NCBI GenBank assembly: GCA_961205875.1
Contig: OY540820.1
Coordinates: 4,464,001-4,528,000 of the forward strand
Direction: 5' to 3'
Length of the DNA stretch: 64,000 nucleotides
Origin: Sialis fuliginosa
Taxonomy: Eukaryota; Arthropoda; Insecta; Megaloptera; Sialidae
Every line of letters begins with the position of its first letter. The stretch's first letter is position 1. Of this stretch, positions 4,561-63,309 are shown piece after piece. The position numbers and the translations under genes are program-made. Below the pieces are notes generated by a model that had not been told where the DNA came from, searched no databases, and saw nothing but the letters and a program-made list of their open reading frames with translations.

Positions 4561-4890
4561 CTCATAGAGACACATTCGCATTTATAATATTAGTATGGAT
4601 TTTACACGCAGAGAAAAAACATGGTTGTGACATGATCGCAGCAACATAACTTTTTTGTATGTATAATATATTGGTTACTATGAAAATAGTTAATACTTGT
4701 AATAATTTCATATTTTTCAGAATGATTACCGTAAAAATTAAATTATTATAGAAAACATTTCTTTTTTGTAAGTACTATGTTACATTATCACCAGAAATTT
4801 AAGTTGCTGCAGAAAAAGTATGATTCTGGTAACATAATATTAATTTGACATTTATGATTCCAGTAATCATTTGCTTTACAACAATGATTT

Positions 4891-22633: not shown

Positions 22634-22698
22634 TATAAGTTTTATACCACGTTTGAATGTGTTTTAAACAAAATCTTTAAAAAATAAATAAAAAATAA

Positions 22699-22704
22699 AC
22701 TTAC
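22699..22704 (-). other. Splice donor of the receptor exon
   Basis: GTAAGT on the minus strand, following ATGTTGG. It falls at the expected boundary before TM6; the next codon is completed by the next exon (G plus TN, giving the family's valine). Confidence 0.9.
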
Positions 22705-23551
22705 CCAACATCCTAATAACATGATTCTGCGACGTCGACAGCTTCGAACTTCTTCCTCGTGCTACCGATGCTTGCTCGCCATTCACCATCGAATTATTCG
22801 ATGGTCTTTTCACTGTTAACACACGACTCCGTCTTAACTTAACACCGATAAGTATATAAAGCACTGTAATGACAGTCATTGGCCCGACAAAAATAACAAA
22901 CGTAGATATTGCAAACACATGCTGCATTAACACCCACTTAATAGTACATCTACTTTGAATAATCTCACCGTTCGTTATTTGATCATAAACAACACCAAAC
23001 TGAATAGCTTGAGGTAAAGCTAAACACACTGATAAAATCCATATACCGATAACGAATTTTATCGCCCGTGACAGCTTTGACATTGTGTGTGAAAGAAATG
23101 GAAAACATATAGCTACATATCTTTCTATTGTGAATGCTGTGATGGTAAGTACAGAAGCATTGACTGAGGTTTCTGCAGCAAGTCCTTGAAGGAAGCAGAA
23201 TGTTTCTCCGAAGACGTACACCCATGGTGACCACATGTGAAATACTTCAGGAGGGAGACCGGAGGTTAGCAGGAGAAGATCAGATATCGCAAGGCTGAAT
23301 AGGTAGTAGTTCGTTGCTGTATGCATGCACCTGTTTTTTGATATCACTATGCATGTTGATATATTCCCTATTATTCCTGTGAGGAATATTATCGTGTATA
23401 CGATTGTGACTGGAACAAGGATTGTAAGAGGATCGCGTTGTACGAGGTTTCCGTAGTCTTCTTGGTACAACGAAACGTTGAGGACTGATCCATTTGTCAA
23501 TAGATGACTCTGGTTGGGAAATATTATTTCCGTTTCTGCTTCCAAAGCCAT
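22705..23551 (-). CDS. Pyrokinin/CAPA-type neuropeptide receptor, first coding exon (N terminus to start of TM6)
   Basis: Rhodopsin-class GPCR of the plasma membrane, expected to bind amidated PRXa-type neuropeptides (pyrokinin, CAPA; related to vertebrate neuromedin U receptors). Translation from the ATG at 23551 gives 282 residues plus one base. An N-terminal tail has N-glycosylation sequons at N13, N20 and N25. TM1 is about 43-67 (GN at 62-63), TM2 81-103 (D91), TM3 116-146 with C119 and the ERY motif 143-145, TM4 165-186 (W171), ECL2 with C202, and TM5 209-236 with P224. Family signatures are visible: HTATNYYLFSLAISDLLLL, AAETSVNASVLTITAFTIER and FLSHTMSKLSRAIKF. The exon stops in phase 1 after VIRML at GTAAGT (22704-22699), exactly where family members continue V..VV.AFF.CW into TM6. 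Reading on adds 13 intron-coded residues. TTG upstream (23569) extends the frame but is not a eukaryotic start; ACAAGATGG at 23551 has good initiation context. Pyrokinin and CAPA receptors cannot be separated without TM6-TM7. Confidence 0.95.
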
Positions 23552-23811
23552 CTTGTGTTTTTCATTCAAGTATTTTCTACATGTTATTATTTTTTATGTT
23601 TTACATTCTTCTGGTTCGCTTTAATTTTTAAAGTGACACTAAAGTCTAATGCACAGCATTTTAAAGTTCAATCTAACTTAATTGGTTTTAGTTTCATGTG
23701 TTCGTAATTTGGTTATTTCATATGAATTATTTTGAAGATCATATCTGTGAGTAAATTTAAAATCTTTATTTAGTTAATTTTACTTATTGTTAGTCGATAC
23801 TATAGGTATAC
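23552..23811. other. Upstream flank of the receptor exon
   Basis: Should hold 5' UTR, an upstream non-coding exon junction or promoter of the receptor gene. No TATA box in a convincing position and no clear acceptor was identified. Confidence 0.4.
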
Positions 23812-32912: not shown

Positions 32913-34403
32913 TTAAGGATGTATGGTACGTACAGTCTGGGTCAAAAATAATGTAAATCTAGATGCAATGAACGATCAAAATCAAATTATAAATTATTCA
33001 CTATAAATGCTTATAAGAAAGTCAAATTGGTTTATCTACTATATATAACGAAGTGTCCTCACTCACTCACTCACTCACTGATAATCATTTTTTTGACCAT
33101 TTCCACTCATCGGAGAAACTTGAAATTTGGTATATACATTCCTTGGGGGTAAAAAATAACAACTAGTGGGCCTTTTTTGAAAAAGTTTATAAATGGGGTA
33201 ACAAGGGGCCCCCAAATTTTCAAAAAAAAAGTTAGAATTTTTTTATTATTTTTTTTATATTCCTTGGGCGATATAATGTAAGGTTCAAATTTCAGATTTA
33301 AAAAAAAAGAAAAAAAAAGGAAAAAAAAAGTTTTGATGTAAAAAAGTATCAAAACGAAAACCGATATTAGATTTTTTTAATTTTTTTCAAATACTTTGGT
33401 TAATTGACAACCATAAACCCGTGTCTGATTTTTGAAAAAGATATGTTAAAGAGGAGAAAATAAACAAAATACGTTTACATATAATGCGCTTTAAGCATTT
33501 ACTAAATTAATTGCAAATGTCGTAACTATGGATACATTATATTTTATTGATTATTTTAAAAAAATTTAAATGTCAGTGGCCATTTAAAATTTTGAAGTGA
33601 ACAATAAAATATAACAAAAAAGAAATATAAAGAACATAACGAATGAAAAAATATGCACAACTCTAATGTAATATATAATTAAAATTTTCATAAATAAATT
33701 TGACAAAAAAATTGAAGACAAACAATTACAGCATTCGGACACAATTCGACCAACATTCGGCGATAGATATGTGTTCCCGGTACAAATAAAAATTAAGTAT
33801 ATAATGACATTTTTTTAATCTTAAGTCATTGAATTATCAATATTTTTACTTTCATAGGTATAGGTATTTTATTATATTTATTTGTAATCATAAATATCAG
33901 AAGAATTTATATAATTTCAAATTAACATTGTAATTTTAAATGATATTATTTTAATTGTTGTTTGAAACTGTATATCTGTCATCTTTACCCAATGTATTCA
34001 TACTAACCTAAAATGTACATTTACAAAATTAAAACAAGATGTTGATTTATTGCAAATTGTTACGAAAGCTTCATTCAATTGACAAGACCTATATTTGATT
34101 GTAATTAATTAATTAATTGTACAAAGGGTGTACGAGTATCTACAAGAGCTAATAATGTATTTATATAGACACATTGATGAATTTTTTAAAGACACGAGCA
34201 GAAAAACCAAAAATGAAATTATTTTTAATATTCATAAAATGTTCAAATCATGTAAGTACATGATGTAATACAATACATGTACCAGAAGTCATAAAATAAT
34301 TTTTTGTCGTTGTCATATCAGAAACAAATGTCATAATATGTATTTAGTATGCAATATATATTTTCATACGACAAGAGTTGAAAACGCATCGTAAACAAAT
34401 ATA

Positions 34404-34692
34404 CAGGTAATCCTCGACTTATAATTGTCTTTGTCTCTTTCTTACATGCACATATTACATAAATGAAACAAACAGTTCCGGGAATTTCCCAAAAATGTAA
34501 TTTATTATTATTTATGTAGATATTTTTGGGAACCCGCAACTGTTTGTTATGTATAGAAAATGCGATTCGCTTCACATCAAGGAAAACGTCCAAAGCAAAA
34601 ATATGTACATATTGTACGTGTTAACTTACAACTTATTCTATTTACGATCGATGTTTAGAAACCTATCTCGGTTGTAAGTCGAGGAATACCTG
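34404..34692. mobile_element. Tigger/pogo-like MITE nested in the Helitron
   Basis: CAGGTAATCCTCGACTTATA after TA; GTAAGTCGAGGAATACCTG before TA. Terminal CAGGTA.TCCTCGACTTA matches the pogo/Tigger style of terminus. A 91-residue minus frame (34318..34593) overlaps it and has no recognisable domain. Confidence 0.85.
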
Positions 34693-35194
34693 TACTACGA
34701 TATATAACGTATGTCTTATCAGTTTAAGCGTAAAAAATATCAAAGTTAATATTCAATGTTTTTAAATGCTGCGAGAAGTTCAAACATGCTTGACTGATTT
34801 AAATTTACTTTTTTCCTTATTTTATATATTACTTACAAAATAACCAAGACGTTCCATTAAAATTTCAGGATTTGTGATTAAGTGTTCTGTCGTAGGAAAA
34901 GTTTAGGAAGCACTGTTCTACATCATACTTCAATATCAACCAAATTGAGTTATTGAGGGTAAAAAATATATTGAAAAAACCTCATAGAGAAACCATATTT
35001 AGTTTGTGCAATAAAGTTTTAACAGGTACGATTTTTCTAAAATATCTTAAAATTAATAAAATTAAAATTAATAAAAACCCAGCTCTAATGAATAAATAAG
35101 AAAGCACTCCGTCACAGCACTATATTATTCCGTCGCGGGAAAGTACCTACCATATAGGCCAGTCAGGATCCACTCAGGGCTAGCTACGTCACTG

Positions 35195-35839
35195 GTTACG
35201 ATACTATATTATTGTTGGTTACGATATTTCATAAAACAGATATCGGTGCTTAGAATACATTGTCTGGAGGAATACGATAAAAGTTTTAACAGATTTTTTA
35301 GCGGAAAAGAGAATTTTGTCGCTTATATATGAGATTTTTAGAATCGATAACTCAATTTCGCAAAAAGTGTATCTTACGATACTTTGCCTTGGAGGGGACG
35401 ATATAGAAATAATTTAACCAGGTATGTTATAATTTAGGTATATAAAAACATAGTACCTAGCCATGGAATACGGAATTTCATAATTTACGGTTTCAATATT
35501 TTATTTTATTAATTTAGGTTACTATGATTATGTCTCTTTAAAATATTTTGTCGAACAATTAAATGATTTTTGACACATATTAACAATTAAATATTTTGAA
35601 ATGCCTATATTGATTGAAAATTTATATATGAAGAAACATTTCACTTCTATGAAAGGTAAAATATCGAAATTAATTATTAGGTTTGGTGTAAATTTTTCGA
35701 AACACAATTTTTCTAATCACAATTTTTCAAATCAAAATTCTTCGAATGAACAATTTTTCGAAAAATTTAAGTTTTATTGTTCAAATTTTAATTAGTTAAT
35801 AAAATATTAAGTAAAGTAATATTTGGACATTTTACGATA
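35195..35839. other. Helitron cargo, anonymous
   Basis: 35690-35760 has a loose tandem of CAATTTTTC(T/A)AAT words. Just upstream, GGGCTAGCTACGTCACTG ending 35194 resembles a hAT right end. No gene fragment captured by the Helitron is recognisable. Confidence 0.45.
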
Positions 35840-36776
35840 TCCATACTAATATTATAAATGCGAAAGTGTGTTTGTCTGTCTGTTTTCTGTTTGTTACCTT
35901 TTCACGGCTAAACCGCTTTACCGATTTTGATGAAATTTGGCAGTGAGATAGCTTGCATCCCGAGGACGGACATAGGCTATTTCGTATCTTAAAAATTCAA
36001 CCCCTAAGAAATTGCAAGGGGGTAGAAATTTTTTAATTTTTTTTAGTAATTATTATTTTACCCCCCGATACATATGAAGGGTTGTAAGTGGTTTTATTCG
36101 ATCCGGCGGGAAAAATACCACGGGGGCGTAGGTTTTAAGGGGCAAAACAACCCTCTATCTCGCATAGGAGCCGAGATATTTACGATTTTGTATAATGAAA
36201 GAAAACTAAAAATAAGAAAAATTTAATATTTTACCCCCTGTCACATATGAAGAGTTGTAATTGATTACATTCGATCTGGCGGGCAAAAATACTACGGAAG
36301 AGGGATTATTAGGGGGACAAAACAACCCCTTATCTTACATAGGAGTCGCGACTTATATTATAAATGCGAAAGTGTATCTCTCAGTCTGTCTATTTGTTAC
36401 CTGTTCACGACTAAACTGCTTTACCGATTTTGATGAAATTTGGCAGTGAGATGGCTTACATCCCAAGGACGGATTAAGGCTATTTCATATCTCGAAAATT
36501 CAACCCCTAAGGAATTGCAAGGGGGAGGAAAATTTTAAATTTTTTTTAGTAATTAATATTTTACCCGTTACATATGAAGGGTTGTAAGTGGTTTTATTCG
36601 ATCCAGCGGTAAAAATACCACGGGGGAAAAACCCCTCTATCTCGCATAGGAGCCGACACATTTACGATTTTGTATAATTAAAGAAAACTAAAAATAAGAT
36701 AAATTTAATATTTTACCCCCTGTCACATATGAAGGGTTTCGAAATCCACGCGAGCGAAGTCGCGGGTAGCAGCTAG
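35840..36776 (+). mobile_element. Internal second Helitron 5' end sharing the same 3' end
   Basis: TCCATACTAATATTATAAAT then GCGAAAGTGTGTTTGTCTGT is a well-known insect Helitron 5' terminus, preceded by A. Together with the 3' end at 36776 it would be a 937-bp element. It contains an internal duplication of period 506 bp (ATTATAAATG at 35851 and 36357). The flank to its left is not the TTAA-element target, so the unit that landed here was the larger 33035..36776. Confidence 0.8.
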
Positions 36777-37399
36777 TACACTACATAAACTATAAAAAAT
36801 ACTTTTGTTTAAAACCTTATTTCTTATTTTTGTTGATAATACGAAAAAAATTTATTCTGACTTCATGTGTCAGATATAAAAACAAAAGAAGTATTTTATT
36901 GTTATAAATGACATAAATTAAAACATTTTTAAATAACACTATTTAGAACATATGTGGAACATACAAATGTAATGAAAATAACAATATTAGTACTTCATAT
37001 GCTTACATATATGAAAAAATATGTAATAAAAACAAATCATTACATTTCAGTACGCCATTTTTTTTTTTAATATTTTTCAGTAATTATTTTTTTTCACAAT
37101 TTAGTTCTGTATGTGTATATTTTTTTTTATGAAACTTGTTGCTAAATATGTACATAAGTGACGTGTTGTGAAAATTTCAGATTTTTCTCGATGCTTGAAC
37201 CATGTGTTTTATTGAACTTTAACCGTAAATACACCATTCTTCGATAAGAGCCCATGTTAATTTATAAAAATAATAACTTTGAAACTATGTTGGAAAACCT
37301 TTTGAAATTTTGTGTGGGTACTTAAGATTTATAAAGGAGTAACTTCTCCAAATTTCAACTATTTCTCATTGAAATTAGATACCTGCCATACATCCTTAA

Positions 37400-41623: not shown

Positions 41624-42128
41624 GATCGAGTGTTTCACGAGGAAGGTTTAAGTGTATAATTTATGGATATTTCGTGTAACTTTCATGAAATCGGAAAAAA
41701 AATAATGTTTAATAGGTTAAGTTTATATCTTCGGGTAACACCGGATCTAATGCACTAGTTTAGTTACTACACATATGTATAATGGTAAAACATTACTATC
41801 TATCCTAATTGCAAACGTATAATGCACCTTACTGCAAACTGTTTCTTCTTTAAATTAATGTTAATTTACTATATTTCATTATTCATTTCAACTGTAATGC
41901 ATAAATGTTTACTTTGTGTATTATTCAAGGGTCAGGTAGTCATCAATATATGTATGCGTCATTTTGCAACTGTACTTTTAAATATCCTTGAACTTTGCAG
42001 CTTTAATTATCGTGCAATGAACTGATCATCAAGTTTTAGAAGGCATGTACTATAAAACAGCTATATCAAATAATTAAATAGATATAAATGTATTGTACCT
42101 GTTTATATGAATTTTGTATAATTGAAAA
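41624..42128. other. Anonymous DNA, start belongs to the tail interrupted at 40794
   Basis: GATCGAGTGTTTCACGAGGA to about 41700 continues the tail-like phrase of 40680-40790. The remainder has no feature. Confidence 0.4.
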
Positions 42129-61035: not shown

Positions 61036-61720
61036 TAATACTCAATCCTTTTAATGAAATTATTTCGGATGCTGTGGTTTTGTTTTTATATAAGTACGTT
61101 TTATTCACGATTTTTCTCTTCAAAAATGTTAATTAGCAGTTTTATTTTGTATTGTCAGGAAGAGTAATAATACCATCAAGCAAATTACAGAATTACTCAA
61201 TGAATACATTATTTCTTAGAATATTGTGAAGTTTTTTTTTAATTTATTTGTTCATGCAGAATAAAGAATTAAACGTGGAAAAAATTTTAAACGAATTCAA
61301 GGAACTATTTTCGACATTTTCGTAAATTACCAATGTATGAAATGAAGAAAATGGTGATTTTACATCAAAAAGATAAACGGTCTCTCGTATTCGTAACAGA
61401 GACTGAGAAAAGTTTCAGTTATGTGGAAAGTCTTTTATAACCATTATCCCCCATTTATTCTTATATATTAACCCATATTTAACAATTATTTATAACAGAC
61501 AACAATAAACAATAACTAAATTGACGCGGCTTACACCCAGAAACCAAGATCCACATAGTAATTATACATTGTGTCGAGTTTTTGGTAAAAAAAATATTAT
61601 TTAAAATTTTATTTTTTTACGCGATTTTTGGCCTATTTTAATTGATGGATTCGGTTTAACGCGGTTTTAAAAAAAATATGGAACATATCCAATGTAAGCA
61701 ATGTTTTTTTAAGCGATTTT
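61036..61720. other. Anonymous DNA with a Penelope-like fragment
   Basis: 61517-61552 (AAATTGACGCGGCTTACACC, CAGAAACCAAGATCC) is one arm of the hairpin seen at 25445 and 32561. No gene. Confidence 0.5.
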
Positions 61721-61724
61721 TTAA

Positions 61725-62475
61725 GGATGTATGGCAGGTATCTAATTTCAACGAGAAATAGTTGAAATTTGGAGAAGTTACTCCTTTATAAATATTAAGT
61801 ACCCACACAAAATTTCAAAAGGTTTTACAACATAGTTTCAAAGTTAAATTAACATGGGCTCTTATGGCAGAATGGTGTATTTACGGTTAAAGTCCAATAA
61901 AACACATGGTTCAAGCATCGCGAAAAATCTGTTATTTTCACAATATGTCACTTACATATTTAGCAACAAGTTTCGTTAAAAAAATTATATACATACAGAA
62001 CTAAATTGAGAGAAAACAAAAATTATTGGTGAAAAATATAAAAAAAAAAAAAAAAATGGCGTAGTGAAATGTAATGATTTGTTTTTATTACATATTTTTT
62101 CATAACATATATGTATGTAAGCATATGAAGTACTAATATTCTTATTTTCATTACATTTGTATGTTCTAAATAGTGTTATTTAAAAATATTTTAATTTATG
62201 TCATTTATAACAATAAAATACTTCTTTTGTTTTTATATCTGACAGATGAATTCAGAATAAAATTTTTTCGTATTATCAACACAAATATTAATTTTTTGGC
62301 TAAAATTCTAAAATAACAGTCAATAAAGGTTTTAAACAAAAGTATTTTTATAGTTTATGTAGTGTATAAACCAATTTGACTTTCTTATAAGCATTAAAAG
62401 TGAATAATTCATAATTTGATTTTGATCGTTCATTACATCTAGAATAACATATTATTTTTGACTCAGACTGTATCG
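61725..62475 (-). mobile_element. Uninterrupted relative of the TTAA element (empty Helitron site)
   Basis: TTAA at 61721-61724 then GGATGTATGGCAGGTATCTA. It runs colinear in reverse with 32917..33034 plus 36777..37395. The far end decays after GACTCAGACTGTATCG. The bases complementary to the Helitron junction are 62366/62367. Confidence 0.85.
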
Positions 62476-62821
62476 TATTTAACAGATTGTATGTATTAAA
62501 GTTAATGACCTTAATTGCTCATAAATATCAATTGACTTGAATTTTGTGTTCTAATTAAAAATGTACATTTCTGTTACTGAAATTCAAATATATTCTACGA
62601 GTACAAAGAAATAATAATAAAAGAATAAATATTAATATAAGCATACATTGTTTTGTACTTTCCATTTTCTTATCTTTGCTTTTCACTGACGTTTCAATAT
62701 AAATATTGTACGAACAATTTTCATAAAAGAATGAATTGTTTACGCACGATTACATTTTTCTTTTATTTCATAAATTTTTCTCTATATGTATATAATATGT
62801 ATTTAAAAGAATATATAAAAT
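62476..62821. other. Anonymous AT-rich DNA
   Basis: No features. Confidence 0.45.
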
Positions 62822-63014: not shown

Positions 63015-63309
63015 TATTTTTTGAAAGTGTGTCTGTCTGTTTGTTACCTTTTCACGGCTAAACCGCTGAACCGATCTTGATGAAATTTGGCAGAAAGATA
63101 GCTTATATCTTGAGGTGCGACATAGGCTTTGTATCCCGAAAAATTTATTAGATAAAAAAATTTGTGTGTGATATTTGTACTTGCGACATGTTTTATCGAC
63201 TATCATAACAGAAATATGTATTACCTAACATTCTTCTTCTTGAGTTTTACGTTTGACATCTCCTACCCAACCTAACTTGCACGCGAACGGAGTCGCGATT
63301 AACAGCTAG
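63015..63309 (+). mobile_element. Helitron 3' portion
   Basis: TGTCTGTCTGTTTGTTACCT, TTTTCACGGCTAAACCGCTG and GATGAAATTTGGCAGAAAGA match the interior of 35840..36776. The 3' end is ACGCGAACGGAGTCGCGATT then AACAGCTAG (63306-63309). It is followed by C, not T. The 67-residue minus frame 63003..63206 is in this repeat. Confidence 0.75.

Follow-up and report, generated by a model that had tools for sequence, protein, structure and literature searches.

How can a single Helitron come to start at the 5′ end of one family and finish at the 3′ end of another? The question is raised by a 64,000-nucleotide stretch of the Sialis fuliginosa genome (contig OY540820.1 of assembly GCA_961205875.1, positions 4,464,001 to 4,528,000 of the forward strand; hereafter the window), in which a TTAA element spanning 32913–37399 is split by a 3,742-bp unit with Helitron ends. 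A previous reading of the window made from the letters only (hereafter the sequence-only reading) had noticed this insertion and a second Helitron 5′ end inside it. The analysis described below indicates that the unit is probably a chimeric, non-autonomous Helitron that arose by nesting: a Helitron of family A held a transposon, M, which in turn held a Helitron of family B, and transposition ran from the A tip to the B terminator.

The filled site reads GGTTTA[TC...CTAG]TACACTAC. The unit starts with TCTACTATATATAACG, its first T being at 33035, and ends in ...GGGTAGCAGCTAG, the G of CTAG being at 36776. An inverted copy of the TTAA element (62477–61720) provides the empty site, GGTTTATACACTAC, across the junction. 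Alignment of the joined flanks with the inverted copy gave 85.5% identity over 785 columns with zero gap at the junction; therefore, the insertion is base-exact, between A and T, without target duplication, as the sequence-only reading had it, and the boundaries and length that it gave for the unit were upheld. The empty copy, described there as intact, is indeed uninterrupted at the site, but its far end near 62477 is degenerate and has no TTAA, which leaves the junction unaffected.

The ends of the unit are those of a Helitron, with TC at 33035, CTAG at 36773–36776 and a 3′ hairpin (CGCGA...TCGCG) 8 nt ahead of CTAG. The hairpin recurs at 63280–63309 with 25 of 30 letters retained, a level of at least 21 of 30 being reached in 0 of 200 shuffled ends (plus strand). 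Helentron/Helitron2 elements insert in T-rich sites and have a 3′ end without CTRR. Membership in that group was rejected, since our sites are A/T (the slash marks the point of insertion) and the ends are CTAG; the relevant passages of PMC4067079 describe Helentron/Helitron2 as having subterminal inverted repeats.

Between its ends the unit is composite (Table 1). The 5′ end of A contains a CTCA tract (33058–33079). The inner B tip at 35840 reads TCCATACTAATATTATAAAT and has an A before it, as was noticed earlier, and the 937-bp Helitron that starts there is present, though it proved to be itself a diverged dimer (35845–36256 versus 36351–36738, 86% identical). Two things had been missed: B sits within an arm of M and not directly in A, and a third, altered B-type tip matching 24 of 28 letters lies at 36346. 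Three nested 5′-like ends (33035, 35840 and 36346) thus have one common 3′ end. One-unit B is found at the M/B junction in two other copies (L011 and L033). The miniature inverted-repeat transposable element (MITE) carried along inside A does have inverted ends (arms 34402–34424 and 34672–34694, 91% complementary), while its description as Tigger-like is a label of the sequence-only reading. Open frames within the unit do not exceed 100 codons, and an Rfam scan returned no match. A scan of 33035–35839 for the 3′ end of A itself was uninformative, a CTAA at 34149 scoring 14.5 compared to 14 for the true end. The possibility that 33035–35839 is an independent terminal inverted repeat (TIR) element was discarded, as its ends are unlike (8 of 20 letters; 472 of 2,000 random pairs were equal or better).

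Other copies were sought in the 392-Mb, 20-contig assembly from which the window was taken (contigs are designated C1 and so on, fetched loci L001 onward). In similarity searches the 40 best candidates were scored, which biases the results to close copies, and pattern counts are of exact matches only. The A tip was matched 419 times and the M/B junction, ACGATA/TCCATACTAA, 305 times, with a backward control of 0 for each. Thirty A tips were fetched (L039–L068); 28 of them are preceded by A in the A/TC arrangement, one follows CTAG in a tandem and one is truncated, and 29 start with TC. The 28 upstream flanks, compared mutually, have no more than 30 of 60 letters in common. On the other side, the loci L001–L038 have 33 distinct 3′ flanks, all after CTAG and all starting with T (flanks were counted as one where the first 25 letters agreed; five tandem loci thus count as three, and three flanks are another A tip). 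Alignments of at least 2,500 bp at 97.9–99.0% identity (mean 98.7) were obtained for 22 of the 29 loci L010–L038, which come from the 40 best matches and so share the bias to near copies. Pairing of 40 tip matches with 40 of 41 end matches, one 34-nt partial end match being left out, yielded seven tip-to-end pairs of 3,596–3,751 bp, the window copy included.

Linkage of A and B tips was computed on contig C1. An exact A tip is found 2.4–3.1 kb upstream of 35 of the 55 M/B junctions there, compared to a random expectation of 0.02 on average and 1 at most (200 placements). Viewed from the other end, 36 of 76 exact A tips reach an M/B junction first (35 at 2,601–2,798 bp and one at 4,410 bp). Among the matches listed, those of other B tips on C1 numbering 100 and extending to 43.7 Mb, 10 of the 76 reach another exact B tip first, and for 30 no exact B-tip pattern of either kind lies within 4.5 kb. 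A B end is nevertheless reached from at least two of these 30 (C1:31553927 and C1:31730499), and the unlinked tips are therefore not evidence for B-free A elements. No copy of 33035–35839 ending in a hairpin-CTAG of its own was seen, with 30 of 76 C1 tips not linked to an exact B tip. The long form also occurs in head-to-tail arrays, with 38 exact CTAG/TCTACT junctions (backward control 0) and tandem loci among those fetched (L006, L014, L023, L028 and L037). Four pairs of tandem junctions lie one unit apart (3,720–3,745 bp), and such pairs are probably three units in a row; pairs were recorded at C2:24522462 and 24526182, C3:32870791 and 32874536, and C3:35297669 and 35301400. Pattern scans of public viral and prokaryote contigs gave 0 matches. 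The long form thus transposes as a whole and does so at many loci. Given its 305 exact inner junctions, it represents a family already established and not a chimera made by the insertion in the window, a point on which the sequence-only reading needs correction.

The inner boundary can be followed in the same way. B ends are abundant in the genome (2,295 first-look candidates, of which 40 were scored), and 581 exact B tips have upstream letters that exclude the long form (backward control 0), so the tip of the short element does occur elsewhere after A. Both checks proposed in the sequence-only reading, on the long form and on the short one, had the outcome that it expected. The 5′ boundary of B is seen with other upstream DNA in the window (4599, minus strand, 27 of 28 letters) and at L006, L067, L032 and L063; three upstream contexts besides that of the long form were read. 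M without B was looked for with the pattern TTTGGACATTTTACGATATD, in which TTTGGACATTTTACGATAT is extended by any letter but C. It has 55 sites, the letter being A in 47, T in six and G in two. Ten sites were read. In seven M is uninterrupted at the site, all being ACGATATATTTAATAAAC; at two (L073, which has no A upstream, and L079) M contains a B with a tip starting TTCAT, and L074 is a long form with the B tip deleted. At L069, the sole site where ACGATA is not followed by T, M has an inverted second arm. The inner filled site at L079 reads ACGATA[TTCATATT...CTAG]TATTTAATAAAC and holds a complete B of 510 bp; this M contains two B copies in opposite orientation. Thus, an entry of B into M at an exact A/T can be read with base precision; the long form lacks all of M beyond B. 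The sequence-only reading had considered the DNA left of 35840 not to be the target. This holds for the unit as a whole, but for B that DNA, namely M, did serve as the target. At one further locus (L072, 1885–2700) there is a long array of the 15-bp minisatellite of the M arm, suggestive of minisatellite expansion within M.

A second, different A+B combination exists. At L067 and L006, B is joined at AATAAA/TCC, the distance to the A tip being 1,022 and 769 bp, respectively; the A part is shorter and more diverged than that of the long form, and B is 88 and 85% like that of the window. Among the matches listed on C1, the distances from an A tip to the other kind of B tip are 748, 769, 995, 1,017, 1,018, 1,018, 1,024, 1,026, 2,691 and 3,279 bp, six of them falling at 995–1,026 bp (769 is L006, the one of the ten whose junction letters were read). 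Since its joint is another one, A came to carry the tip of B more than once. Further nestings were seen. A second transposon-like insert (TCCACGACTTATATATAATACATG...) carries B at L032 and L063, the 5′ boundary of B being the same in both and preceded by TCTCAAA; at L032 a long-form element is interrupted by this B-carrying insert near 35516, and at L049 an A element is nested within an A element.

Table 1. Parts of the chimeric unit, its target and the empty copy (window coordinates)
Feature	Position	Strand	Evidence
Left part of target TTAA element	32913..33034		
Whole transposed unit, long form A+M+B, between A and T	33035..36776	+	Empty site, other copies
A-family Helitron 5′ end, TCTACTATATATAACGAAGTG; 100-bp extent by convenience	33035..33134	+	A/TC tips in other copies
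MITE inside A, ends TACAGGTAATCCTCGACTTATAA / TTGTAAGTCGAGGAATACCTGTA	34402..34694		Inverted arms
K-like region, putative landing place of M	35433..35679	+	79–85% like 3′ part of Helitron-like family K
Left arm of transposon M, with a 15-bp minisatellite followed by ...GGACATTTTACGATA; remainder of M missing	35680..35839	+	
B-family Helitron, inside M at ACGATA/T, provides 3′ end	35840..36776	+	
Second unit of B, altered tip TCGCGACTTATATT after G	36346..36776	+	Unit comparison
B 3′ terminator: hairpin CGCGA-TCGCG, 8-nt spacer, CTAG	36747..36776	+	
Right part of target TTAA element	36777..37399		
Paralogous TTAA-element copy, empty site, junction between 62366 and 62367	61720..62477	−	

The order of events that we propose is as follows. 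A Helitron of family B would have entered transposon M at an exact A/T, as is seen at other copies of M. M with its B would then have landed in an A-type Helitron, in the K-like region. Next, a Rep/helicase (RepHel) would have nicked the 5′ end of A and replicated rightwards to the first competent hairpin-CTAG, that of B, leaving the rest of M and of A behind. The product, with the start of A and the end of B, multiplied to hundreds of copies, including head-to-tail arrays, and the copy in the window is one such product, inserted into the TTAA element. The sequence-only reading had recognized the chimera and explained it as an older Helitron that gained a new 5′ end upstream. A transposition of A ending at the terminator of B is preferred here because of the hundreds of A tips and the second, different joint with B.

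Two independent insertions, B first and then a 3′-truncated A landing at A/T beside the B tip, would leave similar letters at the inner boundary: the 5′ edge of B leaves an A/TC target, and 33035–35839 ends in TA like the flank. This explanation, to which we give hardly any credence, is already refuted by recurrence, the A-M-B order being repeated with 305 exact junctions, 35 of 55 of them on C1 tip-linked; the sequence-only reading was right to take the larger unit for one chimeric element. Moreover, 35680–35839 belongs to M as its left arm, and M copies without interruption run past 35839. It is also conceivable, though very unlikely, that the capture was driven by B, whose transposase began at a chance 5′-like site upstream, all A tips descending from that site. 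The end product would be the same, recognition of new 5′ start sites is mentioned in passages of PMC3789558, and the 30 of 76 unlinked tips on C1 give no proof of older A elements, at least two carrying a B end. However, at least two different joints with B are seen among the A tips, and the B parts differ by 12–15%, which suggests that A existed before either joint.

The loss of the right part could alternatively be due to recombination: in an A with M and B inside it, ectopic recombination or gene conversion involving two hairpin-CTAG ends would have deleted the stretch from the B terminator to that of A, and amplification would have followed. Ectopic exchange is plausible given the numerous B ends, and the M with two opposed B copies (L079) also speaks for it, but if the end of family K was that of A, the homology looks poor, and the second A+B combination would demand a similar accident twice. 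We consider recombination unlikely and infer that the right part was removed by replication.

The family K just mentioned bears on the native 3′ end of A. Sites of K without M at the place of the M insertion number 225 (exact matches), and three of them were read. The K-type 3′ end is CCCCGGGTAACACCGGGTCCAATGCGCTAG and, by eye, has little in common with the end of B beyond CTAG. At L090 the would-be insertion point of M is located, as calculated from positions, about 185 bp before the K-type CTAG. Going by the three loci out of 225, the native 3′ end of A was perhaps of K type. The window itself contains K-type 3′ ends with up to three mismatches to CCGGGTCCAATGCGCTAG at 41741–41758 (plus strand) and 45986–45969 (minus strand). 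RepHel matches are present in the genome, with open frames of 1,660–1,987 codons: 1,675 codons at C9:1083925, 1,660 at C12:951765 and 1,987 each at C3:36039380 and C3:36047214, the latter pair being on opposite strands about 8 kb apart.

Several observations weigh against the nesting account. The native 3′ end of A was not found, nor was an autonomous partner: six RepHel loci and two longer stretches were read and contained no convincing A or B sequence, the ends of the RepHel elements in them not being located. Since no locus was read in which A holds M and B together with the right remainders of M and A, the landing of M in A is drawn from the order of the sequences. B is monomeric and has a TTCAT tip at L079, while in the long form it is dimeric and has a TCCAT tip; instead of being the direct ancestor, L079 may represent another insertion, made separately at that A/T. 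The 3′ hairpin is no more stable than its 40 nt in shuffled order (z −0.28). Finally, the similarity of the A tip to the B tip was matched by 111 of 768 window controls, though, over 140 nt, by no more than 5 of 500 shuffles. The likeness had been tried as proof of a Helitron end at 33035 and was dropped in favour of the other copies. Since the tips are not clearly alike, a single transposase acting on both A and B is our assumption.

Other sequences in the window were also recorded. A 5′-truncated B-family relic with the hairpin and CTAG end kept (25 of 30 letters) occupies 63027–63309 on the plus strand, and an isolated 31-nt B-family 5′ tip with no recognizable element behind it lies at 4570–4600 on the minus strand. 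A repeat family with common ...ACTTTGTCGTCCG...AGAAACTTGAAATTTTTACTGAACATGTAAAATGA is found around 26463 (plus strand), 46832, 52316 and 54749 (minus strand), the three minus-strand copies starting with GGGTTCYGAAGAAACCCTATT. A rhodopsin-type receptor gene is located at 22664–23569 on the minus strand.

A literature search with sequence strings of these families matched no paper. The mechanism is already proposed for Fusarium, and the present case is an unusually well resolved one. FoHeli elements of Fusarium oxysporum likewise have multiple 5′ termini with a single 3′ terminus, for which the authors propose self-insertion, a nick at the leftmost 5′ terminus and a stop at the first 3′ terminus (PMC5148889). 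They differ in that the duplicated 5′ sequence is typically shorter than 200 bp and the ends are non-canonical and Helitron2-like (PMC5148889); our unit has two different canonical ends 2.8 kb apart, B arrived by way of a TIR-type transposon, and the inner sites are base-exact. In maize helitron_mc2, too, the multiple termini were interpreted as coming from nested Helitrons that then transposed, but this element starts at a single 5′ end and contains three 3′ termini, of which two are pseudo-termini that were passed over (PMC3288121); in our unit the inner terminator was obeyed. Among insects, BmHel-6, -9 and -10 of Bombyx mori are new families made of combined Helitron segments; they were found by comparison of family consensus sequences, and the passages in question contain no empty site (PMC3789558). 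Sfru_Hel1A is another case of insect non-autonomous Helitrons growing stepwise, with additions that are internal (filler DNA) and ends that are common (PMC6544945). Helraiser, an experimental bat element, shares TC...CTAG ends, a 3′ hairpin terminator and an essential 5′ end, the 3′ end being not strictly necessary; unlike in our unit, its reported variation consists of bypass into flanking DNA and truncation and not of a stop at an inserted terminator (PMC4778049).

The gain and loss of Helitron ends have so far been argued mostly from family comparisons. Here, one genome holds the outer and inner empty sites, the inner filled site, free B tips, the multiplied chimera and a second combination. 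Since all these stages are readable to the base in a single genome, the rule of leftmost 5′ end and first 3′ end becomes quantitatively testable. We put at an even chance the broader idea that B-carrying TIR-type transposons deliver Helitron terminators into unrelated Helitrons and so repeatedly make families with a foreign 3′ end; it is raised because B rides both in M and in the second insert (at L032 and L063, the former having landed in a long form) and because A joined B at two places. Functional tests could make use of the B terminator, at which transposition seems to halt within a longer element.

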